Of a stretch of 64,000 nt of DNA, positions 182-17,949 are shown in pieces; position 1 is the first letter of the stretch; each line of letters starts with the position of its first letter. Source of the stretch: Alloalcanivorax marinus (GTDB lineage Bacteria > Pseudomonadota > Gammaproteobacteria > Pseudomonadales > Alcanivoracaceae). The stretch lies in the NCBI RefSeq assembly GCF_016906305.1, contig NZ_JADDOL010000001.1, positions 1-64,000 of the forward strand, in the 5' to 3' direction. The position numbers and the translations under genes are program-made. The notes under the pieces were generated by a model that was not told where the DNA came from, did no database searches, and saw only the letters and a list, made by a program, of their open reading frames with translations.

Positions 182-1588
182 TCAGGGGGCGCCGGCCAGG
201 GCCGCCGCCGTCTCTCCGGCGATGGCCCCCAGCACCACCGCGCTGAGCAGACCGTTGCCGGACATATAGCCATCGTCGCCGGCACCGGACACGCCGCGGG
301 CGGCGCCACCGGCGGCCAGCAGATTGGGCAGCGGCCGGCGGTCCCGGTCCAGCACCCGACCGTCGGTGTCCACTTCCAGACCACCCTGGGTGTGGAACAG
401 GGCACCGGTGACCCGGATCGCGAAGTACGGCGGCGCCAGCCGGTGGGCGGGCTCGAAGGTCCGACCGAAACGGTCCGCCTGGCCGCTGTCCGCGGCCGCC
501 GCCATGGCGTCGAACTCCCCGCGCACCGTCTCCAGCGGCACCGCCAGCCCCTCGGCCAGGGCCTGCAAACTGTCGAATCGCTTCACCGCGCCGGCGGCCT
601 CGGCGTTACGGTAATCCTCGAATCTGAGCGCCTGTTCATGAATGCGCCGGTCGTACAGGTTCCAGGCCTGGCTCTCCGGCTGGGCGTTGACCTTGGCGGC
701 CTGCTCCGAATAGCCCAGGTGTTCGTTGGAGAAGCGCGCTCCGTGCAGGTTCACCTGCACCCCGCCCTGCATCATCACCGCCCAGGAAATCAGGGTCTGG
801 TGGGGCCAGGCCAGGGAGCCGTGGCCCTGATAGGCACCCATGTCCCTGAGGCTGGCGTCCAGCGCCTCGCCCCATTGCACCGCCTCGCCGCGGTTGCCTT
901 CGTGACCGAAGTAGAGAGCCCCGGCCATGGCGGGAATGTGGCGGGCGATCAGCTCCGGATTGCCGCCGTAGCCGTTGCAGGCCAGCACCAGCGCCTCACA
1001 GCCGAGACGCTCCTCGACGCCGTCGGGACGTTGGTAGGTCAGGCCGCGCACCCGGCGTCGATCATCCACATGCAGGGTGGTGACCCGCGCCCGGGTGAGC
1101 ACATCCAGCTCCGCCGCCTCGGCGGCGTTGAGCAGGCAGCTCATCAGTTCCTCGCCGGTACGGCGCGGCGTGCAGTGCATCCGCAGGCGGCTGTGGCCAG
1201 GGTAGAGAAAGCCCTCCACCAGCTCGAAGGGCACGCCGTGCCGGTCCGCCAGCCATTCGATCACGGCGCCGGAACGCCGTGCCAGGGTGTCGACGATGGC
1301 CGGGTCGGCCTGACCGTGATTCTTGCCCTGAATGTCCGCCGCCATGCGCGCCGCGTCGTCCTCCACGCTGGCGGCGCGCTGGAAACGGGTGCCCGCCGCC
1401 GGCACGAAGCCGGACGACATAAAGGTGCTGCCCCGGGGTACCGCGTCCCGTTCCAGCACCACCACCTCCACGCCCAGGGAGCGGATCGCCAGGCCGGCGA
1501 CCAGACCGCAAGCACCTGCGCCCACCACCACCACCGGCAGGGTCAGCTCGAATTCCAGCTCGGCGCCATCGGTTCGGACCTCGGCCAT
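182..1588 (-). CDS. FAD-dependent oxidoreductase (fumarate reductase/KstD-like flavoprotein)
   Basis: This 468-aa flavoprotein has an N-terminal dinucleotide-binding motif (VVVVGAGACGLVAG, about residues 18-31). It has a C-terminal FAD-closing segment (GGAARGVSGAGDDGYMSGNG, about 427-446), as in the FAD_binding_2 family that includes fumarate reductase, 3-ketosteroid dehydrogenase and urocanate reductase. No flavocytochrome heme motifs or signal peptide are seen, so it is probably cytoplasmic. It is the last gene of the leftward arm, 2 bp after the deacetylase-family gene and just before a terminator. The operon suggests that it oxidises or reduces a C-C bond next to a carbonyl in the substrate, for example a succinimide/maleimide or succinate/maleate pair; that role is inference. 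Confidence 0.85.
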   Translation of the reverse strand: MAEVRTDGAELEFELTLPVVVVGAGACGLVAGLAIRSLGVEVVVLERDAVPRGSTFMSSGFVPAAGTRFQRAASVEDDAARMAADIQGKNHGQADPAIVDTLARRSGAVIEWLADRHGVPFELVEGFLYPGHSRLRMHCTPRRTGEELMSCLLNAAEAAELDVLTRARVTTLHVDDRRRVRGLTYQRPDGVEERLGCEALVLACNGYGGNPELIARHIPAMAGALYFGHEGNRGEAVQWGEALDASLRDMGAYQGHGSLAWPHQTLISWAVMMQGGVQVNLHGARFSNEHLGYSEQAAKVNAQPESQAWNLYDRRIHEQALRFEDYRNAEAAGAVKRFDSLQALAEGLAVPLETVRGEFDAMAAAADSGQADRFGRTFEPAHRLAPPYFAIRVTGALFHTQGGLEVDTDGRVLDRDRRPLPNLLAAGGAARGVSGAGDDGYMSGNGLLSAVVLGAIAGETAAALAGAP

Positions 1589-1590
1589 GC

Positions 1591-2526
1591 TCAGCGCTCC
1601 GACCGGGTCTGGGTGTTGAACGCGTCGAGGATCTCGCCGGCGGTGGCCAGCCAGACGTCGTCACGGCGACTCAGTTGCTCGAGCACCGCTTCCAGGCAGG
1701 CGATGCGGTGCGGTTGGCCGATCAGCCAGGGGTGCAGGCTGAGGCCCAGCATCCGTCCGCCCTGCTCGGCGGCTTCGCCAGCGAGAAAGTCCACCGCGTC
1801 CTGGACCTGTTCCACCCAGCTGTCCTCGGAGTGCAGGTTCTGCCCGATCACGAACTGATCCTCGATCTCGGTGGGCAGGGGCATCATGGTGAGCGGGCCG
1901 TGGTCGGTCCGGAACGGGTACGGCATGTCGTCGTTGACCCAGTCGGCGCAGTATTCCACGCCGTGCTCGGCGAGCAGGTCCGGCGTGTGCCAGCTCTGGT
2001 TGCGCGCCGGGCTGAGCCAGCCGCGCACCGGCCGTCCGGCCAATTGATTGAGGGTGTCCAGGGAGCGCTTCACCTGCTCCCGTTCTTCCCGGGGATCCTG
2101 GCCACCGTAGTGCAGGTGATCCATGTTCCAGCCGTGGCACAGCAGCTCGGTGTCGCGCTCCAGCAGACGCCGGGTCAGGTAGGGCGTGTCCCGTGCCAGC
2201 TGACTGTTGATCGCCACCGTGGGGCGCACGCCGTACCGGTCGAATGCCTTCAGGCAGCGGAACACGCCCACCCGGTTGCCATAGTCGCGCAGGGTGAAGT
2301 GGCGCAGGTCCGGGTACGGCATCTTCATGCCGTTGGGCACCTTGAAGGGCTCGCCGCGCTGGTTGAGCGGGTAAAACTCCAGGGACAGGTTCACCCACAC
2401 CGCCAGACGCTTGCCGCCGGGCCAGGTGACCGGCGGGCGGTCCGCCAGCATGGTCCAGTCGTAGCGGTCGTGGTCATAGCCGTGCCGGCGCCAGGGGTAC
2501 TCGAAGTAGCGGTCGTCCAGGCTCAT
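1591..2526 (-). CDS. Polysaccharide deacetylase-family hydrolase (PuuE-like), copy 1
   Basis: This 311-aa protein belongs to the NodB/polysaccharide-deacetylase superfamily, in the branch with PuuE allantoinase and bacterial cyclic-imide hydrolases. Landmarks are WPGGKRLAVWVNLSLEF near the N terminus, RDYGNRVGVFR, HGWNMDH and a late SLHPWLIGQPHR segment, which carry likely metal or catalytic His and Asp residues. The start at 2526 is chosen because it overlaps the preceding stop as ATGA and has GGGAGG upstream; a longer reading frame extends into the neighbour. It is a divergent paralogue of the next gene upstream. Family knowledge points to ring-opening C-N hydrolysis of an imide or ureide rather than sugar deacetylation. 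Confidence 0.8.
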   Translation of the reverse strand: MSLDDRYFEYPWRRHGYDHDRYDWTMLADRPPVTWPGGKRLAVWVNLSLEFYPLNQRGEPFKVPNGMKMPYPDLRHFTLRDYGNRVGVFRCLKAFDRYGVRPTVAINSQLARDTPYLTRRLLERDTELLCHGWNMDHLHYGGQDPREEREQVKRSLDTLNQLAGRPVRGWLSPARNQSWHTPDLLAEHGVEYCADWVNDDMPYPFRTDHGPLTMMPLPTEIEDQFVIGQNLHSEDSWVEQVQDAVDFLAGEAAEQGGRMLGLSLHPWLIGQPHRIACLEAVLEQLSRRDDVWLATAGEILDAFNTQTRSER

Positions 2527-3467
2527 TGGGCGCCTCCCTTGCGTCGTTCGATGTCGGCCACGGCGGTGTCGTAATGGTGGGCCAGATAGTGCTCGGCGAT
2601 TTCCCGGCCGGTGGCCAGCCAGACGCCGTCGTGGCCGGTGATGTATTCCAGGGCCTCTTCCAGCGCCTTGATGCGGTGCGGGCAACTGACCTGATAGTTG
2701 TGGGTGGGAATGCACATCACCGTGCCGGACTCGGCGCCCTCTTCGTAGAGCCGGTCGAAGTGCCGCTTGAGCATGGTGGCGTAATGGCGCGGCTCCACCT
2801 TGTTGACGGTGTAGACGATGGTGTCGTTCATCTCCAGGGAATACGGCACCGAAATAAAGCGCTTGCCGTTGCGCACCGACACCGGCGTGGGCTGATCGTC
2901 GTGGAACAGATCGCAGGTGTAGAAGCCGCCCTCGTCACCGAACAGCTCGCTGCCGACCTCGGCGAACAGGTCCAGGGTGCGCTCGGAGTGGGACAGCGCC
3001 GGCGCCAGATAGCCGGCGCACTTCTGGCCGGTGTGGCGATGGATGGATTCCATGGCATCGCGGATCATGGTCCGCTCCTGGGCCTCGCTCATGCCGTAGG
3101 TGTAGCGGGTGTTGTAGATGCCGTGGCTGAACAGCTCCCAATCACGCTCCCGGCACATGTCGATGATCTCCGGATGGTGCTCGCACAGCGCCACGGACAG
3201 GGATACAGAGCCGCGAATGCCGTACTTGTCGAGCAACGCCATCTGGCGGCGGTGGCCCACCCGGTTGCCGTAATCGCGGATGGCGTAGCCGGGTACCGCC
3301 GGGCTCGGCTGCGGCCAGGCCTTACGGTGTGGATTGTCCGGCGGGTCCAGTTCGTAGAACTCGATATTGGGAGCCACCCAGAACGCCACCCGGGCGCCGT
3401 TGGGCCACTCCAGCTTGGGGCGATCCTCGTAGGGCCAGTAATCGTAGACGCCGAGACTTTCCTTCAT
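2523..3467 (-). CDS. Polysaccharide deacetylase-family hydrolase (PuuE-like), copy 2
   Basis: This 314-aa second member of the PuuE/cyclic-imide-hydrolase-like branch shares with copy 1 the WPNGARVAFWVAPNIEFYEL start, RDYGNRVGHRR, a SHGIYNTRYTYG segment and a late PTHNYQVSCPHR motif. Both of its ends overlap neighbours by 4 bp (ATGA), so it is translationally coupled to the cysteine hydrolase upstream and to copy 1 downstream. Tandem copies suggest two ring substrates, a two-subunit enzyme or two consecutive hydrolyses. The predicted reaction is opening of a cyclic imide (or a hydantoin-like ring) to a half-amide. Exact substrate cannot be read from sequence. Confidence 0.8.
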   Translation of the reverse strand: MKESLGVYDYWPYEDRPKLEWPNGARVAFWVAPNIEFYELDPPDNPHRKAWPQPSPAVPGYAIRDYGNRVGHRRQMALLDKYGIRGSVSLSVALCEHHPEIIDMCRERDWELFSHGIYNTRYTYGMSEAQERTMIRDAMESIHRHTGQKCAGYLAPALSHSERTLDLFAEVGSELFGDEGGFYTCDLFHDDQPTPVSVRNGKRFISVPYSLEMNDTIVYTVNKVEPRHYATMLKRHFDRLYEEGAESGTVMCIPTHNYQVSCPHRIKALEEALEYITGHDGVWLATGREIAEHYLAHHYDTAVADIERRKGGAQ

Positions 3468-4132
3468 GCGCTTTCACCGTCCAGCCAGGCCAGCACGTCG
3501 GCCACGTTCATCACGTCGGCGTACTTGAGATGCAGGTCGGTGAGGTTGGCGTAGTGATAGCTCTCGTGCTTATCCGCCACGCACTCCTGGGGCACGATGG
3601 TGCGGTAGCCCCGCGACAGGCTTTCCACCGCGGTGGCGCGGATGCAGCCGGAGGTCGAGCCGCCGGTGATGATCACCGTGTCCACCTGGTGCCAAACCAG
3701 CAAGGACTGCAGTGGCGTCTCGAAGAAGGCGGAGGGCATGCGTTTGGTATAGACCACGTCGCGGTCGTGGTCGATGTTGATCCGCTCGTCGAAGGCGGCC
3801 CGGTCCGAGCCGTACTTGATGTTCTGTAGGGAGTCCGGGGTGTCGGTGCGGGTGCCCCAGACGCCGGCGTCCTCGGCGGACTCCAGAAAAGCCACATGGG
3901 TCCAGACCACCGGCCAGTTCAGCGTGCGGAAGCGTTCGGCCAGCGCGTTGACGTACTCGAGCTGGCGCGGATCGGTTTCATAGGCCGTTTTGTAGAGATC
4001 GGTGCGCGTGTACGCCTTCTGCGGGTCCACGTTCACCAGCACCGCCTTCTTGCCGAACCCGAAAGGCACGCGCTGCGGGTTGGCGATCACGTCCTGGAAA
4101 ATCTGCTTGGCTGTTTTGTCGGTGGTAATCAT
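3464..4132 (-). CDS. Isochorismatase-family cysteine hydrolase (amidohydrolase)
   Basis: This 222-aa protein has the Asp-Lys-Cys triad of the family: Asp in VLVNVDPQKAY, Lys in VYTKRMPSAFF and Cys in GGSTSGCIRATAVES. The tail GYRTIVPQECVADKHESYHY with YANLTDL resembles N-carbamoylsarcosine amidase and maleamate amidohydrolase (NicF type). The expected reaction is release of ammonia from a carbamoyl or half-amide group. It lies between the lyase gene (11 bp away) and the deacetylase-family genes (4-bp overlap). In this operon a maleamate-like half-amide is the most economical substrate; N-carbamoyl amino acids are the alternative. Confidence 0.85.
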   Translation of the reverse strand: MITTDKTAKQIFQDVIANPQRVPFGFGKKAVLVNVDPQKAYTRTDLYKTAYETDPRQLEYVNALAERFRTLNWPVVWTHVAFLESAEDAGVWGTRTDTPDSLQNIKYGSDRAAFDERINIDHDRDVVYTKRMPSAFFETPLQSLLVWHQVDTVIITGGSTSGCIRATAVESLSRGYRTIVPQECVADKHESYHYANLTDLHLKYADVMNVADVLAWLDGESA

Positions 4133-4143
4133 GCTGTCTCCGC

Positions 4144-5025
4144 CTAGCTGGTGGGGTCTTCGTATTGCTTGCCCACGGCCAGAATCCGTTCCGTGCCGAG
4201 GAATTCATTGAGCTGCTTGAAGTCGAGCATCCGGTCGCGGAAGTTGTCGGTGGTGCCGTCGTTTTTCAGGGTGCCGAAGAAGCGGTTGGCCATGAAGGTG
4301 AAGGCCCGCACCAGCGCCCCCGGGAAAATCACCATGGAAAAACCCAGCGCCTGCAGGGCGGCGGCATCCTGGATCGGCGTGTCGCCGCCTTCCACCATGT
4401 TGGCCATCACCGGCACGCGCCCCTTGAAACGGCCCATGACCGCGTCGATGTCATCGGCGCCGCGCAGCCCTTCCACGAACAACAGATCGCAGCCCGCTTC
4501 GCGGTAGGCCTCGGCGCGCGCCAGGGCGGCCTCGATGCCATCCACCGCCAGCGCGTCGGTGCGGCCGATGATCAGCGTCCGCGGGTCGCGGCGCGCGTCC
4601 ACCGCCGCCTTGATCTTGCCGACCATTTCTCCGGCCGGCACCAGGCTCTTGCCGCGCAGGTGGCCGCAGCGCTTCGGATAGGTCTGGTCTTCCAGTTGAA
4701 TGGCGTTGGCGCCGGCGGCTTCCATCAGCCGCACGGTGCGCGCCACGTTCATGGCGTTGCCGAAACCGGTGTCGCCGTCGACCACGATGGACACCTCGGT
4801 GCGCTCGCGAATGTGCGCCAGGGTGTCCACCACCTCGGTGAAGCTGGTCAGGCCGATGTCCGGCCGGCCCAGCTTGGTGTAGGCGATACTGGCTCCGGAC
4901 AGGTACACGGTATCGAAGCCGCTCTGCTCGGCGATCGACGCGCTCAGCGCGTCGTAAACGCCCGGCGCCACCACGATATCATCCTGCCTCAGTCGATCCT
5001 TGAAATTACTACTCACTTGACTCAT
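4144..5025 (-). CDS. Isocitrate lyase/PEP mutase-family lyase (dimethylmalate/methylisocitrate lyase-like)
   Basis: This 293-aa member of the ICL/PEPM superfamily has the metal-binding DGDTGFGN segment and the loop PKRCGHLRGKSLVP. The Cys in KRCGH is the lyase-type active residue shared by methylisocitrate lyase and 2,3-dimethylmalate lyase. This favours C-C cleavage of a 2-hydroxy dicarboxylate over phosphonate chemistry; oxaloacetate decarboxylase is another possibility. It is the first gene of the leftward arm, divergent from gntR across 194 bp. It would consume the malate-type product of the LeuC/LeuD-like hydratase encoded on the right arm, giving pyruvate or another 2-oxoacid plus a second acid (inference). 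Confidence 0.85.
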   Translation of the reverse strand: MSQVSSNFKDRLRQDDIVVAPGVYDALSASIAEQSGFDTVYLSGASIAYTKLGRPDIGLTSFTEVVDTLAHIRERTEVSIVVDGDTGFGNAMNVARTVRLMEAAGANAIQLEDQTYPKRCGHLRGKSLVPAGEMVGKIKAAVDARRDPRTLIIGRTDALAVDGIEAALARAEAYREAGCDLLFVEGLRGADDIDAVMGRFKGRVPVMANMVEGGDTPIQDAAALQALGFSMVIFPGALVRAFTFMANRFFGTLKNDGTTDNFRDRMLDFKQLNEFLGTERILAVGKQYEDPTS

Positions 5026-5138
5026 TCGCTCTCTCGGTTGCCGTTTCCCGGTGCGCTGGCGCCGACCGACACCGGACTAAACAGCGGTCCAGAACTGGCC
5101 TACAATGCAGATCACACCAAACATCAAAATGACTTATA

Positions 5139-5156
5139 TATAATACATTTATATGT
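5139..5156. promoter_or_regulatory. Candidate gntR promoter -10 with overlapping operator
   Basis: A perfect TATAAT (5139-5144, plus strand) overlaps an AT-rich near-palindrome ACAT-N4-ATGT (5145-5156) containing TACATTTA (5144-5151). The same octamer recurs at 6073-6080 on the other side of gntR. No good -35 is visible. The position fits autoregulation of gntR and control of the divergent operon; this has not been tested by any comparison. Confidence 0.45.
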
Positions 5157-5219
5157 TTAAAGAAGAACAGCGTCAAGCCGGGTCACCGGTCCGTCATCGA
5201 TCCCAGGGGGCCCCGCGCC

Positions 5220-6020
5220 ATGAATGAATCGTCGTTGCAAACCGCGGTCAGCGGCACCAAATCCCACAACCTCTACCTGCTGCTGCGCGACGCCATCCTC
5301 AGCCGCCGCCTGGAGCCGGGAGACAAGCTGCCCGGCGAGCTGAAGCTGGCGGAGCAGTACAAGGTGTCGCGGGTGACGGTGCGCCGGGCCATGGAGGCCC
5401 TGCAACGGGCCGGGCTGATCGCGCGCCGCCCCGGGGTCGGCACAGTGGTGCTGGAGCAGCCCCTGGACGCCACCGTGATGACCGCCAGCGTCTCCAATCT
5501 GCTGCCCAATATGCTGAAGATGAGCCGCGCCTCGAAGGTGCGCCTGCTGGAGTTCGCCTACGTGACGCCGGAACCGTCGATCCGCGACAAACTCAAGCTG
5601 GCCAGCGGCGAAAAGACCCAACGTTCGGTGCGCGTGCGGCAGGTGGAGGACCAGCCGTTCTCCTACCTCACCACCCATGTGCCGGCGCGCATCGCGCACC
5701 ACTACAGCGAGTCGGATCTGGCCCATACGCCCCTGTTCGTGCTGCTGGAGCAAAGCGGGGTAACCATCGACCACGCCACCCAGACGATCTCCGCCGCCCT
5801 GGCCACGCAGACCGAAGCGGAGGCCCTGGGCGTGGCGGTGGGCTCGCCGCTGCTGGCGCTGACCCGGGTGGTCTATGACCGCAACGGCGAGGGCGTGGAA
5901 CACCTGGACGCCCTGTACCGCCCGGACCGCTACCGCTTCCAGATCGACCTCAATCGCACCGGCGAAGACGACGCCCGCTATTGGGAGCCCCTGCCCGGGG
6001 ACAAGGAGCCGGGGGCATGA
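5220..6020 (+). CDS. GntR family regulator, HutC subfamily (UTRA domain)
   Basis: This 266-aa protein has an N-terminal winged helix (about residues 15-80) with the family signature LPGELKLAEQYKVSRVTVRR and the wing segment ARRPGVGTVV. A UTRA-type effector-binding domain follows (about 95-245), ending in LDALYRPDRYRFQID. HutC-type members are usually repressors released by a pathway intermediate. The gene lies between two divergent arms of one catabolic cluster, with candidate operators in both flanking gaps. The most likely role is control of both arms by the imported substrate or an imide/malate intermediate. Confidence 0.9.
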   Translation: MNESSLQTAVSGTKSHNLYLLLRDAILSRRLEPGDKLPGELKLAEQYKVSRVTVRRAMEALQRAGLIARRPGVGTVVLEQPLDATVMTASVSNLLPNMLKMSRASKVRLLEFAYVTPEPSIRDKLKLASGEKTQRSVRVRQVEDQPFSYLTTHVPARIAHHYSESDLAHTPLFVLLEQSGVTIDHATQTISAALATQTEAEALGVAVGSPLLALTRVVYDRNGEGVEHLDALYRPDRYRFQIDLNRTGEDDARYWEPLPGDKEPGA

Positions 6021-6027
6021 TTACGGT

Positions 6028-6056
6028 TTGACATGCCCTGGGGGGCCGACTATCTT
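6028..6056 (+). promoter_or_regulatory. Sigma70-type promoter of the leuC-like/TRAP operon
   Basis: A perfect -35 TTGACA (6028-6033), a 17-bp spacer and a -10 TATCTT (6051-6056) place the transcription start near 6063. It starts 8 bp after the gntR stop codon and drives the rightward arm. The candidate GntR operator lies directly over or just after the start site. Confidence 0.6.
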
Positions 6057-6066
6057 TGCGCGATAG

Positions 6067-6090
6067 ATGTAGTACATTTAATACATATAT
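6067..6090. promoter_or_regulatory. Candidate GntR operator at the right-arm start site
   Basis: ATGTA-G-TACAT (6067-6077) is a perfect 11-nt palindrome of the size and composition bound by HutC-type GntR proteins. It runs on into TACATTTAATACATATAT (6073-6090), and a further AATACATA lies near 6103. The octamer TACATTTA is shared with the gap on the other side of gntR. Placement at about +4 to +27 of the promoter fits repression. Confidence 0.5.
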
Positions 6091-6156
6091 CGGGCATAGA
6101 TAAATACATAGCGGAGTGCCGTTCGGGGCATTCCGCGACGGCGAACCCCCAAAGGC

Positions 6157-7566
6157 ATGGTCGTGAAAAAAGCACCGAGAACCCTCTTCGACAAGATCTG
6201 GGACGCGCACGAAATCCTGCGTAACGAAAGCGGCCAGAGCCTGCTCTGGATCGACCGGCACTTCGTTCACGAAGGCTCCTTCCACGCGTTCAACAAGCTC
6301 AACGCCCGCGACCTGAAGGTCGCCCATCCGGCGCTGACCACCGGCATCGCCGACCACTACGTGCCGACCCGGGGCCGCTCCATTCAGGTGGTCACCGACA
6401 AGGTGCGCTCGGTGATCGAGCAGCTGGAGCACAACACCCGCGAGCACGGCGTCACCCTGCTCGGCCTGGACGACCCGCGCCAGGGCATCGTGCACGTGGT
6501 CGGTCCGGAACAGGGCCTCACCCAGCCCGGCCTGCTGATGGTGTGCGGCGACAGCCACACCTCCACCCACGGCGCCCTGGGCGCTCTGGCGTTCGGCATC
6601 GGCGCCTCGGAAGTGGCCCATGTGCTGGCCACCCAGACCCTCTGGCAAACCCGCCCCAAACGTCTGCGCATCACGGTGGACGGCCGGCTCGGCGCGGGCG
6701 TCACCGCCAAGGATATCGCCCTGGCCTGGATCGCCCGGCTGGGCGCCGACGGCGCCCGGGGCCATGCCATCGAATACGCCGGCGAGGCGATCCGCGCGCT
6801 CAGCGTGGAAGCGCGACTGACTCTGTGCAACCTGTCCATCGAAGGCGGCGGCCGCTGCGGCATGATCGCCCCGGACGACAAGACCCTGGCCTATCTGAAA
6901 GGCCGCCCGGACGCCCCCGAGGGCGAGCAATGGGAGCAGGCCGAACACTACTGGCGCACGCTGCACAGCGACGAAGGCGCGGTGTTTGATCGGGAAGTGA
7001 CCCTGCGCGCCGAGGAAATCGCGCCCCAGGTCACCTGGGGCGTATCGCCGGAGGAAGCCCTGCCCATCGACGGCACCGTGCCCGACCCGGCGCGGGCGGC
7101 CTCCCCGGCCAAGGCCCGCCAGATCCAGGACAGCCTGGACTACATGGGTCTGCGCGCCGGCCAGAAACTCACCGAAGTCGCCGTCGATTCGGTCTTCATC
7201 GGTTCCTGCACCAATGCGCGCCTGGAAGATCTGCGCGCCGCCGCCGAGGTGCTGCGCGGCCGCCACTGCCGGGTGCCCGGCATCGTCTCCCCGGGCTCCA
7301 CCCAGGTGAAGCAGCAGGCGGAAGCCGAAGGGCTGGACCGGGTGTTCATCGATGCCGGTCTGGAATGGCGCGAGTCCGGCTGCTCCATGTGCGTGGGCAT
7401 GAACGGCGACCAGGTGGGCAGTGGCGAACGCTGCGCCTCCACCACCAACCGCAACTTCAAGGGTCGCCAGGGCCCCGGGGCACGCACCCATCTCATGTCT
7501 CCGGCGATGGTGGCGGCGGCGTCGCTGACCGGCCATCTCACCGATATTCGCGAGCTGACGAGGTAA
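6157..7566 (+). CDS. Aconitase-family hydratase large subunit (LeuC/DmdA-like)
   Basis: This 469-aa protein has the full layout of a 3-isopropylmalate dehydratase large subunit: CGDSHTSTHGALGALAFGIG about residue 130, FIGSCTNARLEDLRAAAE about 348 and SGCSMCVGMN about 407. These carry the three Cys ligands of a [4Fe-4S] cluster. A GTG at 6163 has better spacing from the AAAGG ribosome site than the ATG used here. It is followed 3 bp later by the small subunit and then by a TRAP transporter, with no leuA or leuB. The likely role is therefore catabolic hydration of a maleate, citraconate or dialkylmaleate, like maleate or dimethylmaleate hydratase, rather than leucine synthesis. Confidence 0.88.
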   Translation: MVVKKAPRTLFDKIWDAHEILRNESGQSLLWIDRHFVHEGSFHAFNKLNARDLKVAHPALTTGIADHYVPTRGRSIQVVTDKVRSVIEQLEHNTREHGVTLLGLDDPRQGIVHVVGPEQGLTQPGLLMVCGDSHTSTHGALGALAFGIGASEVAHVLATQTLWQTRPKRLRITVDGRLGAGVTAKDIALAWIARLGADGARGHAIEYAGEAIRALSVEARLTLCNLSIEGGGRCGMIAPDDKTLAYLKGRPDAPEGEQWEQAEHYWRTLHSDEGAVFDREVTLRAEEIAPQVTWGVSPEEALPIDGTVPDPARAASPAKARQIQDSLDYMGLRAGQKLTEVAVDSVFIGSCTNARLEDLRAAAEVLRGRHCRVPGIVSPGSTQVKQQAEAEGLDRVFIDAGLEWRESGCSMCVGMNGDQVGSGERCASTTNRNFKGRQGPGARTHLMSPAMVAAASLTGHLTDIRELTR

Positions 7567-7569
7567 CCC

Positions 7570-8172
7570 ATGACGCCTTTTACTGAACTTTCCGCGCTCG
7601 CCTGCCCGCTGCCCCTGGAAAACGTGGACACCGACCAGCTGATTCCGGCGCGCTTCATGAAGGAGTCCCGGGATAAGGGCTACGGCGGTTTTCTGCTGCA
7701 TGACATGCGCTTCGGAGCGGACGGCACGCCCACCGATTTCGTGCTCAACGACGCCCGCGCCAAGGGCTCGGAGATTCTGGTGGCACGGCGCAACTTCGGT
7801 GCCGGCTCTTCCCGGGAAGCGGCGGTGTACGCGCTGGTGGACTACGGCTTCCGCTGCGTGATCGCACCCAGCTTCGGCGACATCTTTTCGTCCAACTCGG
7901 TGAACAATGGCCTGCTTCCGGCGCTGGTCAGCGAAAAAGATTGCGAAGCGATTCTCGACGCCCTCGGCGACCGGCCCGGCGAGCTTCGCGTGGACCTGAA
8001 CGCGCAGACCATCACCGCCGGCGATCGGGATTTCCCCTTCGAGATCAACGCCACCTGGAAGATCAAGCTGCTGAACGGCTGGGACGACATCGACCTGACC
8101 CGGGCCCGGGCGGAGGACATAGAGCGCTTCCGCGAGCACTACACCGCCGCCTATCCCTGGGTCACATCCTGA
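7570..8172 (+). CDS. Aconitase-family hydratase small subunit (LeuD/DmdB-like)
   Basis: This 200-aa swivel-domain subunit matches LeuD in length. It has NVDTDQLIPARFMK near the N terminus, NFGAGSSREAAVYAL about residues 77-91 and SFGDIFSSNSVNNGLLP. It is expected to form a heterodimer or higher assembly with the LeuC-like protein 3 bp upstream, supplying substrate-contacting residues at the iron-sulfur site. The substrate-specificity loop (YGGFLLHDMRFGADG) could be compared with citraconase and maleate hydratase small subunits. Confidence 0.88.
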   Translation: MTPFTELSALACPLPLENVDTDQLIPARFMKESRDKGYGGFLLHDMRFGADGTPTDFVLNDARAKGSEILVARRNFGAGSSREAAVYALVDYGFRCVIAPSFGDIFSSNSVNNGLLPALVSEKDCEAILDALGDRPGELRVDLNAQTITAGDRDFPFEINATWKIKLLNGWDDIDLTRARAEDIERFREHYTAAYPWVTS

Positions 8173-8238
8173 TAGCGGGCGGCCCGCGCTGTCCGCCACG
8201 ACGCCGATAACCCGAAGAACACAATAAAAGAGGATTTC

Positions 8239-9294
8239 ATGAGACCTTCCCTGCGCCTGATGGCGGCCGGCCTCTCATTGCTGTTCGCGTCCCTGACGCA
8301 CGCGGACGAGCAGGTGATCACGGCCCTGCATGCCTTTCCGCCTTCCCTGATCTATACGCAAAGCTTTCTCGAATTCGTCGATGACGTGAACGAGGAAGGC
8401 CAGGGCGTGATCCGCATCGATGTGCTTGGCGGGCCGGAGGTGATCGGCCTGTCCCAGCAACCTTACGCCGTGCGTAACGGCGTGGTGGACATGGCCTACA
8501 CCGCCGCCAGTTTCTACGCCGGCACCCTGCCCGAGCGCGACGCCCTGATCTCGTCCAACACCAACGCCATCTATGCGCGGCAAAGCGGCGGCATCGACCT
8601 GCTTAACCGCATCCACCAACGCAAGATGGACGTGTTCTACCTGGGCTGGTTCGACAGCGGTATCAAATACAACCTCTACACCATCAACAAGCCGGTGGTG
8701 AACGACCAGGGTGATCTGGCCCTGCCCAACCTGCGTCTACGCAGCAACCCGGTGTACGACGCCTTCTTCACCGATTACCTGAAAGCTCAGCCCATCAGCC
8801 TGCCCACCACCGACGTCTATTCCGCCCTGGAACGGTCCGTGGTCAATGCCACCGGCTGGACCCAGATCGGCATGAACGACCTGGGCTGGAACAAGTTTCT
8901 GCGCTACCGCATCGACCCGGCGTTCTATTCCACCGACATGGGCGTGATCGTCAATCTTGAAAGCTGGAACGCGCTCAGCGACGACGCGCGACGCATCCTT
9001 CAAGACGTGGCCATTCGCCACGAACGGGACAGCGCCCTGCGCTTCGCCAAGGCCGCCACTGAACAACAGCGGCAGCTGGAAGCCAACGGCATGACGCCGT
9101 TCAAACTCGATCCGGCGGCGGCGGACCGCTACCTGCGCGCCGCCCGCGAAGCCTCCTGGCGGCGCATGAAGCGCTACATGGAACATCAGCCCGGCGGGCT
9201 CAGCCATTACCAGGACCTGATCGAAAAATTCAACGACCCCGCGGTCGATGCCGGCAAGGACGCCGACGACACCGCCCGGTCCACCACCCGGTAG
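8239..9294 (+). CDS. dctP: TRAP transporter substrate-binding protein DctP
   Basis: This 351-aa periplasmic protein has a Sec signal peptide (about residues 1-22, ending THA-DEQ) and the DctP fold. Family traits include VVDMAYTAASFYAG, the conserved-Arg segment LPNLRLRSNPVYDAFF, and VYSALERSVVNATGWT. DctP proteins bind organic anions, mostly mono- and dicarboxylates, for sodium-coupled import. It is the first gene of a complete TRAP set and directly follows the hydratase genes, which ties transport to the pathway. The C terminus is an acidic, probably flexible tail. Confidence 0.92.
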   Translation: MRPSLRLMAAGLSLLFASLTHADEQVITALHAFPPSLIYTQSFLEFVDDVNEEGQGVIRIDVLGGPEVIGLSQQPYAVRNGVVDMAYTAASFYAGTLPERDALISSNTNAIYARQSGGIDLLNRIHQRKMDVFYLGWFDSGIKYNLYTINKPVVNDQGDLALPNLRLRSNPVYDAFFTDYLKAQPISLPTTDVYSALERSVVNATGWTQIGMNDLGWNKFLRYRIDPAFYSTDMGVIVNLESWNALSDDARRILQDVAIRHERDSALRFAKAATEQQRQLEANGMTPFKLDPAAADRYLRAAREASWRRMKRYMEHQPGGLSHYQDLIEKFNDPAVDAGKDADDTARSTTR

Positions 9295-9300
9295 CGCGCC

Positions 9301-9804
9301 ATGCATGCACTTTCCCGACTCTATAACAAATTGATCGACGCCATGGCGTTGGTATCCGCCGTGCTGCTGGTGTGGCTGATGGTCGCCATCGTCACCTCCG
9401 TGGTGATTCGTAACCTGGGCGTGCAATCGCCGGCCTGGCTGTTCACCTCCACGGAATACGCCATGTTCTATCTCACCTTGCTGGGCGCCCCCTGGCTGGT
9501 GCGTGAGAAAGGCCACGTCTACATCGAAATCTTCATCAAGCCGCTGCCCGACGCCGCCCGCAATCTGCTCAGCCGCGTGGTGATGGTGATCTGCGCGGCC
9601 ATCTGCCTGGTGCTGGCGGTCAAGGGCGTGGAGCTGGTGAGCACCAATATCGACCGGGTGGATTACGACGTGCGCACCTACTACTTCCCGATGTGGATGC
9701 TGACCATCACCTATCCGATCAGCTTTTCGCTGATGGGTCTGGAGTTCATCCGCTTTCTGTTTTCCGACCAGCCCTATCACAGTGAAGAACAGGAGACGCA
9801 CTGA
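9301..9804 (+). CDS. dctQ: TRAP transporter small membrane subunit DctQ
   Basis: This 167-aa protein has four predicted membrane segments, the usual number for DctQ, and starts 6 bp after dctP. The conserved loop GAPWLVREKGHVYIEIF lies about residues 61-77. Its stop overlaps the start of dctM by 1 bp (TGATG). It works with DctM as the membrane part of the secondary TRAP importer. Confidence 0.9.
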   Translation: MHALSRLYNKLIDAMALVSAVLLVWLMVAIVTSVVIRNLGVQSPAWLFTSTEYAMFYLTLLGAPWLVREKGHVYIEIFIKPLPDAARNLLSRVVMVICAAICLVLAVKGVELVSTNIDRVDYDVRTYYFPMWMLTITYPISFSLMGLEFIRFLFSDQPYHSEEQETH

Positions 9805-11117
9805 TGGAATGGTATTACGCGCTTCTGTTCCTGCTGTCCCTGGTGCTGGTGCTGATGTTCATCGGCGTGCCGGTGGCGATTGCCTTTATCGGCGCCAACC
9901 TGGTCGGCGCCTGGGTGTTCATGCGCGGCGACGCCGGTCTGATTCAACTGCTCAATAACGGCTTCGGCGCCCTGTCCAGCTTCAGCCTGGTGCCGATCCC
10001 GCTGTTTCTGCTGATGGGCGAACTGTTCTTCCGCACCGGCCTGGGCATGCGCATGTTCAACGCCATCGATCAGTTGATGGGGCGGGTGCCCGGGCGCTTG
10101 TCCTACGTCACCGTGGTGGGCGGCACCGCCTTCTCCACCCTGAGCGGGTCCTCCATGGGTTCCACCGCCCTGCTCGGCTCCCTGCTGGTGCCGGAGATGG
10201 AACGCCGCGGCTACAAGAAGTACATGTCCATCGGGCCGATTCTCGGCACCGGCGGACTGGCCATCATCATTCCGCCCTCGGCCATCGCCGTGCTGCTCGC
10301 CACCCTGGCCAAGATCGACATCGGCGACGTACTGATCGGTGGCGTGCTGCCCGGGGTACTGCTGGCCTCCCTGTACATGTTCACCATCTGGCTGAAGACC
10401 CGCCTGAAACCGGATTCGGCGCCGGCCTACGACGTGGATGCGCTGCCCCTGGCCACCAAGCTCAAGGTGCTGAGCCGGGACATTCTGCCCATGCTAAGCA
10501 TCATCGTGCTGATCATCGTGATGATGCTCACCGGCTTCGCCACCCCGTCGGAATCCGCCGCCTTCGGCGCGCTGGGCGTGATCGTGCTGGCGCTGGTGTT
10601 CCGCACCATGACCCGGGAGGCGTTCAAACAGTCGGTGATGGGCGCGCTCAAGGTCACCCTGATGGCGTATCTGATCGTGTTCGGCTCCGCCACCTTCAGC
10701 CAGTTGCTGGCGTTTTCCGGCGCTTCCCACGGGCTGATTCAGTGGGCCACCCATTTCGATCTGCATCCGTTGCTGATGCTGGGCGCCATGCTGCTAGTGT
10801 TGCTGGTGCTGGGCACCTTCATGGAAGCGATCTCGATCATGATGATCACCGTGCCGTTCTTTTTCCCCCTGGCCCAGTCCCTGGGCTTCGACCTGGTGTG
10901 GTTCTCGGTGGTCACCCTGATCGCCCTGGAGATCGGCTTCTCCACCCCGCCCCTGGGTTTGAACCTGTTCGTCATGAAAGGCGTGGCGCCGGCCGGCACC
11001 ACCATGCGCGAGATCTACCTCTCCGCCATTCCCTACATCCTTTGTTCGCTGTTGCTGCTGGCGGTGCTCACCGCCTTCCCCGGCATCGTGACCTGGCTCC
11101 CCTCGTTGTCGGGCTGA
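9804..11117 (+). CDS. dctM: TRAP transporter large permease subunit DctM
   Basis: This 437-aa polytopic protein has about 12 membrane segments. Family motifs include FSTLSGSSMGSTALLGSLLV (about 111-130), GGLAIIIPPS, and EIGFSTPPLGLNLFVMKGVA near the C terminus. DctM forms the sodium-dependent translocation path. It overlaps dctQ and is the last transporter gene before a hairpin at its stop codon and a strong terminator. Confidence 0.93.
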   Translation: MEWYYALLFLLSLVLVLMFIGVPVAIAFIGANLVGAWVFMRGDAGLIQLLNNGFGALSSFSLVPIPLFLLMGELFFRTGLGMRMFNAIDQLMGRVPGRLSYVTVVGGTAFSTLSGSSMGSTALLGSLLVPEMERRGYKKYMSIGPILGTGGLAIIIPPSAIAVLLATLAKIDIGDVLIGGVLPGVLLASLYMFTIWLKTRLKPDSAPAYDVDALPLATKLKVLSRDILPMLSIIVLIIVMMLTGFATPSESAAFGALGVIVLALVFRTMTREAFKQSVMGALKVTLMAYLIVFGSATFSQLLAFSGASHGLIQWATHFDLHPLLMLGAMLLVLLVLGTFMEAISIMMITVPFFFPLAQSLGFDLVWFSVVTLIALEIGFSTPPLGLNLFVMKGVAPAGTTMREIYLSAIPYILCSLLLLAVLTAFPGIVTWLPSLSG

Positions 11118-11129
11118 GCGCCGACAACG
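11104..11129 (+). repeat. Perfect hairpin spanning the dctM stop codon
   Basis: CGTTGTCGG (11104-11112) and CCGACAACG (11121-11129) are a perfect 9-bp inverted repeat with an 8-nt loop that includes the TGA stop. It lacks a T-tail and sits 10 bp before a true terminator, so RNA stabilisation or a transcription pause is more likely than termination. Confidence 0.5.
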
Positions 11130-11138
11130 GGTCTCCAT

Positions 11139-11167
11139 GGCGGCCGACCTCCGGCCGCCTTTTTTTT
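11139..11167 (+). terminator. Rho-independent terminator after dctM
   Basis: GGCGGCCG (11139-11146) and CGGCCGCC (11152-11159) form a GC hairpin followed by eight T. It separates the TRAP genes from the porin gene, which starts 27 bp later. Porin expression must come from read-through or from a promoter not visible to me. Confidence 0.75.
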
Positions 11168-11193
11168 ACCACTCCGCTCTCCGAGAGGAACGT

Positions 11194-12369
11194 ATGAAAA
11201 TCATAACCTCCAAGCGTATTTCCGCTCTTTCCCTGGGTACCGTGTTCACGGTGCTGACCTGTTCCGCCCAGGCGGTCGGCTTCAAGGCCGGCGAAACCGA
11301 CCTGGAACTGTACGGCTATGCCAAACTCGATGTGATCTATGATCTTGACGCGGACCTGGGCAATGCGATTCTGCGCAATCGGATCCCGCTGGACGACGAC
11401 CCCGGCGCCGACGGCCATCTCACCATGCACGCCTTCGAAAGCCGGGTGGGCTTCACCACCGCCACCATGGTGGACGGGGACGTACTGCGCACGGTGATCG
11501 AAACCGATTTCTATGGCGGCGGCGGCTTCGCCGACGGCGGTGGCGAGCTGCGTCTGCGCCATGCCTACGGGGAGTGGAAGGGCCTGCTGGCCGGTCAGAC
11601 CTGGACCAACTTCGGCAATGTGCTGAGCCTCTACGAGACCATCGACTTTAACCGGGACCTGGGCCAGGGCGGCGGCCGCCAGGCGCAGATCCGCTACACC
11701 ACCGGCCCGTTCTCGTTCTCCGCGGAAGACCCGAAAGGCACCGGCACCGGCCACGCCGGTGGCGAAGTGATCGCCGAGGACACCAATCAATTCCGTTTTC
11801 CGGATCTCACCGCCCGCTACCAGGGCAGCGCCGGGCCGGTGCAGTTCGCCACCGCCGCGCTGGTGCGTTTCCTGGAATACGACGCGGACGGCGAAACCGT
11901 CAGCAACAGCGCCTGGAGCGACGACTCCGCCACCGGCTGGGGGGTAATGGCCGAGGCCCGCGCCCGGCTCACCGACACCCTGACCCTGCGCGGCTCGGTG
12001 ACCCACGGTGACGGCATCGGCGGCTATCTGTACCTGAGCCCGGCGGCGCCCGGCTACGTCAGCAGCAGCGGCAAGCTGGAAACCATCGAAGGCACCGGCG
12101 GCGGCGTCAGCCTCAGCGCCAAGACCGGCCCGGGCCTGCTGACCCTGGCCTACGGCGTGGCCCGAGCCGATGTGGACGACGCCTATCGAGACGGCGCTAT
12201 CGCCGGCACCGCCGACGAGCGCTACACCAGCACCACGCTCAACTACCTCTGGTCCACTACCAAGTACCTGACGTACGGCGTGGAAGCGGGCTATCACACC
12301 CGCGAGCAGGTGGACGGTCGCGACGGCGACGCGGTGCGCCTGCAGGGCATGGTGCGCTTCAATTTCTGA
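11194..12369 (+). CDS. Outer-membrane porin, DcaP-like
   Basis: This 391-aa beta-barrel has a signal peptide of about 26 residues (ending SAQA-VGF). The mature start ETDLELYGYAKLDVIYD is typical of the DcaP-like trimeric porin family. The chain ends in Phe (MVRFNF), the usual outer-membrane insertion signal. The ATG at 11194 is chosen for the GAGAGGAA site just upstream; a longer frame begins inside the terminator. DcaP-type porins pass dicarboxylates and other small anions, which fits the TRAP importer next door: the cluster encodes uptake across both membranes. Confidence 0.88.
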   Translation: MKIITSKRISALSLGTVFTVLTCSAQAVGFKAGETDLELYGYAKLDVIYDLDADLGNAILRNRIPLDDDPGADGHLTMHAFESRVGFTTATMVDGDVLRTVIETDFYGGGGFADGGGELRLRHAYGEWKGLLAGQTWTNFGNVLSLYETIDFNRDLGQGGGRQAQIRYTTGPFSFSAEDPKGTGTGHAGGEVIAEDTNQFRFPDLTARYQGSAGPVQFATAALVRFLEYDADGETVSNSAWSDDSATGWGVMAEARARLTDTLTLRGSVTHGDGIGGYLYLSPAAPGYVSSSGKLETIEGTGGGVSLSAKTGPGLLTLAYGVARADVDDAYRDGAIAGTADERYTSTTLNYLWSTTKYLTYGVEAGYHTREQVDGRDGDAVRLQGMVRFNF

Positions 12370-12390
12370 GCCCCTGGATCACCCGGACCC

Positions 12391-12420
12391 GGGCCGACCC
12401 CCATGTCGGCCCGCGGTTTT
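12391..12420. terminator. Hairpin between convergent porin and lysR genes
   Basis: GGGCCGAC (12391-12398) and GTCGGCCC (12405-12412) form an 8-bp stem with a 6-nt loop, followed on the plus strand by GCGGTTTT. It is a probable terminator for the porin gene and lies between two convergent genes. Confidence 0.55.
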
Positions 12421-12434
12421 ACCGGCTCCGCGTT

Positions 12435-13328
12435 CTACCCCACCTCTTTCATCGTCGGCCCGGCGTCTTCCGGCACCGGCAGGCTGTCCATGAACACCTC
12501 CAGCGCCCGGCTCCAACTGGCCGGCGGCGGCGTCGCCACCACCGTGGTGACCTGACCCAGAGCGTCCGGCAACGGCAGGGTGTGCAGGTCGAAACGCTGC
12601 CGGTATTGCGCCACCGTGGAGGCCGGCAGCACCGCCAGCCCCATGCCGGCACTGACGCAGCCGACGATGGCGTCCAGGCTGCCGAACTCGTGGATGCGCG
12701 GCGCCGGCACCCGCCGTTCCGCCAGCAGCAGCTCGATGGTGCGCCGGTACCCGCAGCCCTGGCGGAACGCCAGAAACGGCGTGCGCAGCAGCTCCGCCCG
12801 CTCCGGCATGGCCGGCAGCGGCCGCGCGCCGACCAGCACCAGCCGCTCCCGGAACACCGGCCGCAGGGCCAGCTCCTCGCCGGCGTCCTCGGCGGCCACG
12901 AAGGCCGCGTCCAGCTGCCCGGCGCGCACCGCCTCGATCAGTTCGCCGCTGGTGCCGGTGCGCAGGTGCACGGCCAGTTGCGGCCAGCGTCGGCTGAACG
13001 CGGCCAGCAGCCGGGGCAGGTGCACCGCCGCGGTGGTTTCCATGCTGCCCAGGCGCAGCTCCCCGAGCGGTTCGCCGCCCGGCCGGAAGCGGGCCAGGGC
13101 GTCGTCGTGCAGTTCCACGATGCGGCTGGCGTAGGCCAGCAGCTGGCGGCCCGCCGGGGTCGCCACCACCGGGTTGCGCCGGTCCAGCAGGTGCGCGCCG
13201 AGCTCGCTCTCCAGCTTCTTGATGTGGGCGGTGACGTTGGACTGCACCGTGTGCAGCCGTTCGGCGGCGGCGCTGAAGCTGCCGGTGTCCACCACGGCGC
13301 GGAAGATTTCCAGGGAACGGATCAGCAT
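12435..13328 (-). CDS. LysR family transcriptional regulator
   Basis: This 297-aa protein has an N-terminal winged helix-turn-helix (FSAAAERLHTVQSNVTAHIK, about residues 18-37) and a substrate-binding domain from about residue 90. It is divergent from an MFS transporter gene across a 110-bp gap that contains a perfect T-N11-A LysR box. The arrangement is classic for a LysR protein that controls the neighbouring exporter and itself. The inducer is unknown. Confidence 0.9.
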   Translation of the reverse strand: MLIRSLEIFRAVVDTGSFSAAAERLHTVQSNVTAHIKKLESELGAHLLDRRNPVVATPAGRQLLAYASRIVELHDDALARFRPGGEPLGELRLGSMETTAAVHLPRLLAAFSRRWPQLAVHLRTGTSGELIEAVRAGQLDAAFVAAEDAGEELALRPVFRERLVLVGARPLPAMPERAELLRTPFLAFRQGCGYRRTIELLLAERRVPAPRIHEFGSLDAIVGCVSAGMGLAVLPASTVAQYRQRFDLHTLPLPDALGQVTTVVATPPPASWSRALEVFMDSLPVPEDAGPTMKEVG

Positions 13329-13371
13329 GGGGGCGTCTCTTCACCGGTTGAGATACCACCCATCTTAAAAA

Positions 13372-13386
13372 ATCATTTCCAGTGAT
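13372..13386. promoter_or_regulatory. LysR box (ATCA-N7-TGAT)
   Basis: ATCATTTCCAGTGAT is a perfect interrupted palindrome with the T-N11-A pattern bound by LysR-type regulators. It lies in the gap between the divergent lysR and MFS genes, 44 bp before the lysR start and 53 bp before the transporter start. Confidence 0.6.
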
Positions 13387-13438
13387 AGAAGGGGTCTGGT
13401 TAACTGGCGCCTTTCATCCATCCGACCGGAGCCCGACG

Positions 13439-14617: not shown

Positions 14618-14690
14618 CGCGCCGGACGTTTTTCCAGGCGGTTTTGCCGTAGAATCCGGGTCAACGACCACACGGAATGCGGAGAACGCC

Positions 14691-16304: not shown

Positions 16305-16316
16305 GGCCGGCCACCG

Positions 16317-17222: not shown

Positions 17223-17304
17223 GGCGCCACTCCAGAATCCGTTTCGTCGACCCTAGAACAGTGGCGGCCCGGTGAAAAGCGGCGCGGATCACAAAAGGCC
17301 GGGC

Positions 17305-17949
17305 TCAGGACGGGTTGACCAACCCCAGGTTGACCGCCTTGAGGGCGGCCTCGGCGCGGCTGTTCACCTGCAGTTTCTGGTAGATGTCCTTCAGGTAGCC
17401 GGCGGCGGTGTGATGGGAAATATTCAGCTGGCGGGCGGCGTGCTTCACGCTCAGGCCCTTGGCGATCAGCGTCAGCAGATCGGTTTCCCGGGGCGTCAGC
17501 GGCGTCTCATCGGCCCTCGGGTCGGAGCGGAACTGGTGCAGCAGCCGCCGGGCAATGGACGAGGACAGCGGCGGCCGGCCGTCGAGAATGCCGGTGAGCT
17601 GGCGGGTGAATTCCGCCTCGGTGTCGTCCTTGAGCAAATAGCCGTCGGCGCCGGCGCGCAGACAGCCGAACAGATGCTCGGCGTCGTCGAAGATGGTGGT
17701 CACGATGCAGGGGGCCTGGGGCCGGGCGCTTTTGAAGTCCCGGATCAGATCGGCCCCGTTGCCGTCCGGCAGCCCCAGATCGAGCAGCAGCAGATCGTAA
17801 CCGGTCTCGGCGAGGCAGCGGCGCGCCCCGGCCAGGTCGGCGGCGTGGTCGATCCGCCGAGGCGCCAGGGCGCCTTGCAGGCAGGCCCGCAGCCACTGGG
17901 CCACGTCCGGCAGATCCTCGACGATCAACACATGGTGCGGGCGGTTCAT
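17305..17949 (-). CDS. NarL/LuxR-type response regulator
   Basis: This 214-aa protein has a receiver domain (HVLIVEDLPD at the start, phospho-acceptor Asp in LLLLDLGLPDGNG about residue 55, Lys in YLLKDD). A C-terminal LuxR helix-turn-helix follows (LTPRETDLLTLIAKGLSVKH with ISHHTAAGYLKDIYQKL). The start at 17949 gives a normal length; the open frame continues upstream into the kinase promoter region. It is divergent from a NarX/DesK-type kinase gene 157 bp away, which is the probable partner. Confidence 0.9.
   Translation of the reverse strand: MNRPHHVLIVEDLPDVAQWLRACLQGALAPRRIDHAADLAGARRCLAETGYDLLLLDLGLPDGNGADLIRDFKSARPQAPCIVTTIFDDAEHLFGCLRAGADGYLLKDDTEAEFTRQLTGILDGRPPLSSSIARRLLHQFRSDPRADETPLTPRETDLLTLIAKGLSVKHAARQLNISHHTAAGYLKDIYQKLQVNSRAEAALKAVNLGLVNPS

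Follow-up and report, generated by a model that had tools for sequence, protein, structure and literature searches.

A candidate cassette for the catabolism of a substituted cyclic imide in Alloalcanivorax marinus

In the methylcitrate cycle, 2-methylaconitate is hydrated to 2-methylisocitrate, which a lyase of the isocitrate lyase/phosphoenolpyruvate mutase (ICL/PEPM) family cleaves to pyruvate and succinate. The lower part of anaerobic nicotinate degradation follows the same plan, with an aconitase-superfamily hydratase (DmdAB) preceding an ICL/PEPM enzyme, 2,3-dimethylmalate lyase, that acts on a substituted malate. Here we describe a cassette from Alloalcanivorax marinus (assembly GCF_016906305.1) in which genes for a LeuC/LeuD-type hydratase (LeuCD) and an ICL/PEPM-family lyase accompany those for two PuuE-like proteins (PuuE_A and PuuE_B) and an isochorismatase-family amidohydrolase (IsoCh). 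The window, meaning the whole 64,000-nucleotide stretch that was analysed, lies at the very start of contig C1 (NZ_JADDOL010000001.1) of a 4.05-Mb genome, and the cassette occupies its first 12.4 kb. We propose that the cassette probably serves the substrate-induced catabolism of a substituted five-membered cyclic imide, either a maleimide or a succinimide that is first dehydrogenated.

The locus resembles each of the closest described systems in part. As in the methylcitrate cycle, a methylated hydroxy acid would be formed by hydration and then cleaved by an ICL/PEPM enzyme, and one relative (genome G220) carries a PrpB that scores over the curated cut-off inside its PuuE operon. In contrast, the window lyase falls below that cut-off, and an imide rather than propionyl-CoA is the proposed origin of its acid. 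Set against the anaerobic nicotinate pathway, the window has a LeuC/LeuD-type hydratase, its lyase has closer relatives than 2,3-dimethylmalate lyase, and two hydrolases are proposed to generate the acid from an imide. PuuE allantoinase (3cl6) is the nearest characterised relative, and the nearest fold, of both window PuuE-like proteins, whereas the window encodes two divergent adjacent paralogues with roughly 25% identity in fold alignments and scores far below the model cut-off. Finally, the available part of a report on fungal nicotinate degradation describes an imidase of the polysaccharide-deacetylase superfamily, HxnM, that opens an imide before an amidase, HxnN, frees ammonia (PMC9304392). 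Unlike the cassette, that route, as far as this part of the report describes it, involves a six-membered ring, a single imidase and neither a hydratase nor a lyase step (PMC9304392).

Recurrence of the hydrolase core with hydratases and lyases

A scan of named genomes gave at least 572 confirmed relatives. The locus counts in this work rest on the best 80 of these and, because the best-scoring relatives were kept, lean towards close relatives. Gene content was determined by tblastn, independently of gene calls, and 58 of the 80 loci span at least 20 kb. The identity thresholds for ICL/PEPM (33%) and GntR (28%) were loose, so that some of these matches represent other subfamilies.

IsoCh, PuuE_A and PuuE_B form a core that is present in 79 of the 80 loci, the exception (L104) being a 5.4-kb contig fragment that breaks off within PuuE_A. 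Taken singly, IsoCh was matched in 79 loci, PuuE_B in 80, LeuC/HacA in 50, MmgE/PrpD in 7, ICL/PEPM in 43, HMGL in 18, CoA-transferase III in 22, the flavin adenine dinucleotide (FAD) enzyme type in 31 (at 55% identity or more), GntR in 41, the large subunit of a tripartite ATP-independent periplasmic (TRAP) transporter in 30 and a porin in 1. A lyase of either ICL/PEPM or HMGL type occurs in 57 loci, and a small SnoaL-like protein, named from reading its sequence, in 23. The complete ten-gene set (FAD, PuuE_B, PuuE_A, IsoCh, ICL-like, LeuC, LeuD, DctP, DctQ and DctM) is found in 29 loci, accompanied by GntR in 28 of them.

Among the 58 long loci, 43 have a hydratase, 44 a lyase and 40 both. 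Hydratases, lyases and CoA-transferases numbered 0, 0 and 0 in 22 control stretches of about 20 kb, of which 20 were taken at round positions in seven genomes and two came from the window. The grouping of these genes is beyond chance. Of the long loci, 34 lack the FAD enzyme type, and these include 19 with a hydratase, 20 with a lyase and 16 with both.

The core is embedded in several arrangements. In the window type, LeuCD is divergent from the lyase arm, and in a second type, seen in several Alteromonadaceae loci and in genomes G102 and G689, LeuCD lies directly downstream of PuuE_B. A third type, represented by ten loci from nine Flavobacteriaceae (some genera by assumed placement) and one Saprospiraceae, has the order HMGL, HacA, HacB, CMD, CoA-transferase III, core and SBF transporter, sometimes followed by SDR; tblastn found no SBF transporter in one of the ten (L093). 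Two further loci (L091 and L096) combine another LeuC type with a lyase of 58% identity. A tree of 56 LeuC sequences, rooted at its midpoint, places the cluster-linked LeuC proteins in four clades.

A route from imide to half-amide, substituted maleate, hydroxy acid and cleavage is argued chiefly from the association of one ring-opening core with hydratases of several types and lyases of two chemistries; the support is circumstantial but strong. The initial annotation had placed ring opening, amide hydrolysis, maleate hydration and hydroxy-acid cleavage in this order, and the recurrence of the core with four LeuC clades and two lyase solutions supports it. The presence of a lyase points to a maleate that carries a substituent, as unsubstituted malate would require no such enzyme.

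According to this proposal, the TRAP importer would bring in an anionic substrate and the FAD enzyme would set the redox state of its C=C bond. PuuE_A, with PuuE_B as its partner, would open the imide to a half-amide, from which IsoCh would free ammonia to leave a substituted maleate. LeuCD would then add water, and retro-aldol/Claisen cleavage of the resulting hydroxy acid by the ICL/PEPM lyase would yield a 2-oxo acid and a carboxylic acid, both feeding central metabolism. In other relatives, the set of HMGL-type lyase and CoA-transferase III may be a CoA-dependent way to the same cleavage.

Several observations weigh against the proposed route. Neither a hydratase nor a lyase was found in 19 of the 80 loci, 11 of which span at least 20 kb. 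Kinship among the loci also means that their counts are not independent events, for which reason Fisher p-values are not relied on. More distant PuuE pairs are found in different surroundings. In L047 and L050 an Amidase-family protein is encoded, together with a molybdopterin oxidoreductase in the former and a purine-type permease in the latter, and L051 has molybdenum hydroxylase subunits and an ABC-type binding protein. The core may thus be a ring-opening module that serves several substrates. PuuE-like proteins also act on other cyclic amides, the substrate of the cassette is deduced from neighbouring genes only, and the FAD enzyme may work in either direction, oxidising or reducing the C=C bond.

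The molybdenum enzymes in L047 and L051 would suit a route in which the same chemistry acts on a six-membered imide or a hydroxypyridine product, similar to citrazinate or nicotinate, to give a diacid of the aconitate or glutaconate type. A fungal cyclic imidase of this superfamily does open a six-membered imide, as stated in the available part of its report (PMC9304392). However, no such hydroxylase is found among the called genes of the close cassette, and a cis-aconitate product would presumably need no extra hydratase or lyase. We consider a six-membered ring quite unlikely.

Relationships of the individual enzymes

Residues E36, H115, D190, D191 and H256 of PuuE_A are kept in all 89 sequences compared. 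In PuuE_B, the position equivalent to the motif-1 acidic residue E36 is occupied by Gln in 70, Glu in 12 (including the window protein) and Asp in 4 of 86 sequences, and the positions of the two His residues are unchanged in 85 and 83 of these sequences. This pattern suggests that PuuE_A is probably the catalytic subunit of a putative complex and PuuE_B its often degenerate partner. Predicted models of the two proteins, built from 11 and 10 sequences, have a mean predicted local distance difference test score (pLDDT) of about 81, and in fold searches both match 3s6o and PuuE allantoinase structures best, with TM-scores on the query of 0.74 (PuuE_A) and 0.76 (PuuE_B) against 3cl6. Their scores with the NCBIfam allantoinase model TIGR03212 (110.3 and 118.9 bits) are far below its cut-off of 424.6.

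The initial annotation described the pair as PuuE/cyclic-imide-hydrolase-like. Membership of the PuuE-like family holds, whereas assignment to the cyclic-imide-hydrolase subgroup finds no clear support. According to the available part of the HxnM report, HxnM is 64% identical to the cyclic imide hydrolase of P. putida, and its closest structural homolog is 3qbu (PMC9304392). As a proxy for the imidases, whose own sequences lie outside the searched sets, 3qbu is not nearest to the window pair: it comes after 3s6o and PuuE, with sequence scores of 36.6 and 42.0 bits and a fold-search rank of 10 for each model.

Could the cassette instead begin at maleamate or an alkylmaleamate produced by other enzymes, with the PuuE pair removing an N-acyl group or acting on an amide outside a ring? 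The PuuE-like family is built on deacetylases, and an Amidase relative scores near the core in two loci. Nevertheless, PuuE_A and PuuE_B are nearest to small-ring hydrolases in both sequence and fold, and such a starting point seems very improbable.

IsoCh carries the Asp-Lys-Cys triad typical of isochorismatase-family cysteine amidohydrolases, and its D36, K130 and C163 are kept in all 87 sequences. Among solved chains it matches 4l07, which we take to be a Leishmania-type hydrolase, with 100.6 bits, N-carbamoylsarcosine amidohydrolase (26st) with 89.4 and 3ot4 with 69.2. A profile search likewise gave 95.4 bits for 3ot4/3uao, presumably the maleamate amidohydrolase NicF, versus 140.4 for the top relative. 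The earlier description of this enzyme as NicF-type therefore fails on the ranking of solved relatives in both kinds of search, 4l07 and N-carbamoylsarcosine amidohydrolase being nearer, and a NicF identity was rejected. We infer that IsoCh converts the half-amide to the diacid and ammonia.

The proximity of N-carbamoylsarcosine amidohydrolase to IsoCh, together with that of PuuE allantoinase to the pair, would agree with a ureide, hydantoin or pyrimidine route, in which the pair opens a hydantoin or dihydropyrimidine, the amidase is of the carbamoyl type, and LeuCD and the lyase belong to another pathway. The initial annotation had named strong homology to a ureide or hydantoin pathway with matching substrates as grounds for refutation; no such match emerged, as both proteins score far under the cut-off of the allantoinase model. 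Hydratases and lyases, moreover, recur with the core in several arrangements. An allantoin or ureide route was rejected as the leading interpretation on these two grounds, and we regard it as unlikely.

Both hydratase subunits pass their curated cut-offs (about 657 versus 560.25 bits for LeuC and 177.9 versus 116.25 for LeuD). The window LeuC is one of three copies in the genome over the leuC cut-off, the best of which scores 776 bits compared with its 656.7. Because another copy is the best match to the leuC model, the cassette LeuCD need not serve leucine synthesis, and a housekeeping leucine role was rejected in view of the two further copies over the cut-off. In the LeuC tree, the best and third copies branch between the cluster-linked clades, where they adjoin the window clade and stand apart from the rest. 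With TIGR02087, a LeuD/DmdB-type model with a cut-off of 108.95 bits, the window LeuD scores 72.8 and the small subunit of the flavobacterial locus L111 scores 201.9. The window LeuCD is thus of the bacterial LeuC/LeuD type, not DmdAB. A specificity loop of LeuD, considered as a test for a third carboxylate, was dropped since its Lys also occurs in the other two LeuD copies of the genome; this loop motif was not found described in the literature searched.

The window lyase scores 287.5 bits with the PrpB model TIGR02317 (cut-off 354.4) and is 38% identical to the PrpB-like copy of its own genome. Its nearest solved chain is 1zlp (197.5 bits), with 2,3-dimethylmalate lyase (3fa3, 158.2 bits) at rank 12 of 46, so that it is nearer to the structures of petal death protein and PrpB. 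Its pocket has EGG in common with petal death protein and an Arg in common with PrpB, which is not decisive. As gene content alone, the locus does join a hydratase to an ICL/PEPM lyase in the manner of the anaerobic nicotinate lower pathway. The suggestion that the two form the known dimethylmaleate pair is nevertheless not supported, given the affinities of the lyase and the absence of a DmdAB-type hydratase.

The PrpB of G220 lies in L033 (5651-10828; G220:C18), in the same strand run as IsoCh, PuuE_A and PuuE_B and together with an ETF-QO-like protein. It is 85% identical to a second PrpB of that genome in an apparent prpB-prpC-acnD-prpF operon, where prpC, acnD and prpF are named from size, order and homology to putative copies in the genome of the window. 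As it is a PrpB, this ICL-family match was rejected as a cassette lyase.

The FAD enzyme is nearest to flavocytochrome c3 fumarate reductase (1qo8, 169.7 bits), followed by urocanate reductase (6t85, 126.5 bits), and by this kinship appears to oxidise or reduce a C=C bond next to a carbonyl. Together with the GntR regulator, it was left out of the route first drawn for this locus, and both belong to the cassette. The TRAP binding protein is nearest to 4mnc (160.9 bits; next 46.6), whose ligand we take to be an aromatic 2-oxo acid. The porin, originally proposed to share in uptake, is not conserved within the cassette: a DcaP-family porin was found in one of the 80 loci, that of Alloalcanivorax marinus, and therefore looks like a local addition.

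Candidate substrates

We know of no gene set for microbial use of the maleimide-type remnants of chlorophyll. A search of the literature by titles and abstract openings, with subscription journals and preprints mostly outside its reach, found neither such a cassette nor a bacterial maleimide route. The cassette looks like a new combination of known enzyme families in an apparently undescribed route. Its substrate could derive from the breakdown of chlorophyll or heme. TRAP systems suit anions, and a neutral alkylmaleimide would not fit, so in our judgement a carboxylated maleimide such as hematinic acid is a better candidate than a neutral dialkylmaleimide, the kind of substrate favoured in the initial annotation. 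This preference follows from the type of importer, with 4mnc as its nearest solved binding protein, from the second PrpB in the PuuE run of G220, and from the homoaconitase-type (10 of 80 loci) and MmgE/PrpD-type proteins of other loci.

Hematinic acid (methyl-carboxyethyl-maleimide), once opened and deamidated, is a one-carbon-longer homologue of 2-methylaconitate. Hydration and cleavage of this product would hypothetically give pyruvate and glutarate, or 2-oxoglutarate and propionate, both of which sum to C8H12O7. Two points tell against this substrate: the MmgE/PrpD genes may have no functional link to the core, and the lyase of the window itself does not qualify as PrpB. That the cassette degrades monopyrrole remnants of tetrapyrroles, starting from hematinic acid, is a tentative and rather doubtful proposal. 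According to the available part of one report, chlorophyll by itself is produced and broken down on a scale of 10^12 kg a year, and hematinic acid was found in plant and herbivore samples that contained no detectable maleimides (PMC7318184). The latter finding is a further point in favour of hematinic acid.

If the assignment to imide catabolism is true, the cassette provides a genetic handle on the fate of imide nitrogen, shows LeuCD-type hydratases and ICL-type lyases in a new role, and adds a probable pair of active and degenerate enzymes in a small-ring hydrolase. The route would still be undescribed if the substrate were another imide.

MmgE/PrpD proteins also occur in L034 (11107-18140; G102), where two of them, with CoA-ligase-like, Amidase-family and FAD_binding_4 proteins, are encoded divergently from an IsoCh-PuuE_A-PuuE_B-LeuC-LeuD run.

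Gene layout, regulation and distribution

All twelve genes have intact open reading frames (ORFs) (Table 1). The initial annotation's gene positions, families (PuuE-like, isochorismatase, ICL/PEPM, LeuC/LeuD, TRAP and DcaP), overlaps and KRCGH motif are borne out by these ORFs and by Pfam/NCBIfam, whose scoring of the TRAP genes (8239-11117) covered the P protein only. The genes form two divergent arms, the minus arm running from the lyase through IsoCh, PuuE_A and PuuE_B to the FAD enzyme and the plus arm from GntR through LeuC, LeuD and TRAP P, Q and M to the porin, after which a LysR gene lies on the minus strand. The IsoCh/PuuE_A and PuuE_A/PuuE_B ORFs overlap by 4 bases each. The G+C content of the cassette (65.4%, versus 67.7% for 20-64 kb) is uninformative.

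Table 1. Positions of the cassette features in the window.
Feature	Position	Strand	Evidence
FAD_binding_2 flavoenzyme, fumarate-reductase / urocanate-reductase-like	182..1588	-	Pfam 162 bits
PuuE_B, second PuuE-like subunit (Polysacc_deac_1)	1591..2526	-	Pfam/NCBIfam, residue counts, model and fold search
PuuE_A, PuuE-like ring-opening hydrolase, probable catalytic subunit	2523..3467	-	Polysacc_deac_1, residues, model and fold search
IsoCh, isochorismatase-family cysteine amidohydrolase	3464..4132	-	Pfam 100.5 bits (cut-off 27); conserved D36/K130/C163
ICL/PEPM-family lyase with KRCGH loop	4144..5025	-	PEP_mutase 163 bits
Operator-like palindrome AATACATTTATATGT, likely GntR site	5142..5156	+	between divergent arms
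GntR-UTRA regulator	5220..6020	+	UTRA 112.9 bits, GntR 72.4 bits
LeuC-type hydratase large subunit	6157..7566	+	leuC model, tree
LeuD-type hydratase small subunit	7570..8172	+	leuD model
TRAP solute-binding protein (P)	8239..9294	+	DctP 75 bits
TRAP small membrane subunit (Q)	9301..9804	+	ORF, homologues in place in relatives; named by position and initial annotation
TRAP large membrane subunit (M)	9804..11117	+	ORF, at least 50% identity in 30/80 loci; named by position and initial annotation
DcaP-family porin	about 11194..12369	+	DcaP 64.8 bits

GntR is present in 28 of the 31 loci with the FAD enzyme type. The gap between the ICL and GntR genes contains AAATGTATTA in 26 of 32 cases, and all five gap sequences that were compared share, to varying extent, TAATACATTT or its complement. 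The pattern TACATN4ATGT occurs in this gap in 25 of 31 relatives (18.6 kb) and has seven matches outside it in 594 kb of the same loci, although the gap count is not an independent test because the pattern was chosen after viewing the same gaps. As a separate check, neither the window nor the rest of the 4.05-Mb genome has an exact AATACATN4ATGT other than AATACATTTATATGT at 5142-5156. The simplest reading of these motifs is a candidate cassette-specific GntR operator at 5142-5156, from which GntR would repress both divergent arms.

The distribution of the cassette is patchy, and many carriers belong to marine and salt-loving genera. Among 57 relatives, PuuE_A at 97% identity occurs, besides the genome of the window, only in G012 of the same genus, while six other members of the genus have only matches of about 31-34% identity. 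Matches at an E value of 1e-60 or better were found in 5 of 369 genomes in a sample of the class and in 11 of 398 in a sample of the phylum, the window's own counted in each; the samples have two further positive genomes in common. Carriers among the best 80 include Marinobacter, Billgrantia, Vreelandella, Halomonas, Microbulbifer, Alteromonas and kin, as well as Saccharospirillum, Flavobacteriaceae, Saprospiraceae, Kordiimonadaceae and others. Putative horizontal transfer of the cassette is likely.

The genome of the window holds two further loci of related content. A third PuuE-like protein, with 33-35% identity, is encoded in L028 (10588-12685; G000:C1, about 251 kb), next to a GntR-type regulator and a small protein of cluster c12, the same as in 23 cassette loci. 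A second locus with LeuCD and an isochorismatase, L035 (G000:C12:205000-224000; 6506-19000), also holds HyuA and HyuB of the hydantoinase/oxoprolinase family, a PrpR-type sigma-54 activator, DUF1329, DUF1302 and an MMPL protein. For G043 (L159), HyuA, HyuB, IsoCh and the activator were matched, with no LeuCD match within the stretch examined, and in G002 (L160) all nine genes of L035 were matched. L035 possibly encodes a route for imides or lactams that runs in parallel and uses a different ring opener.

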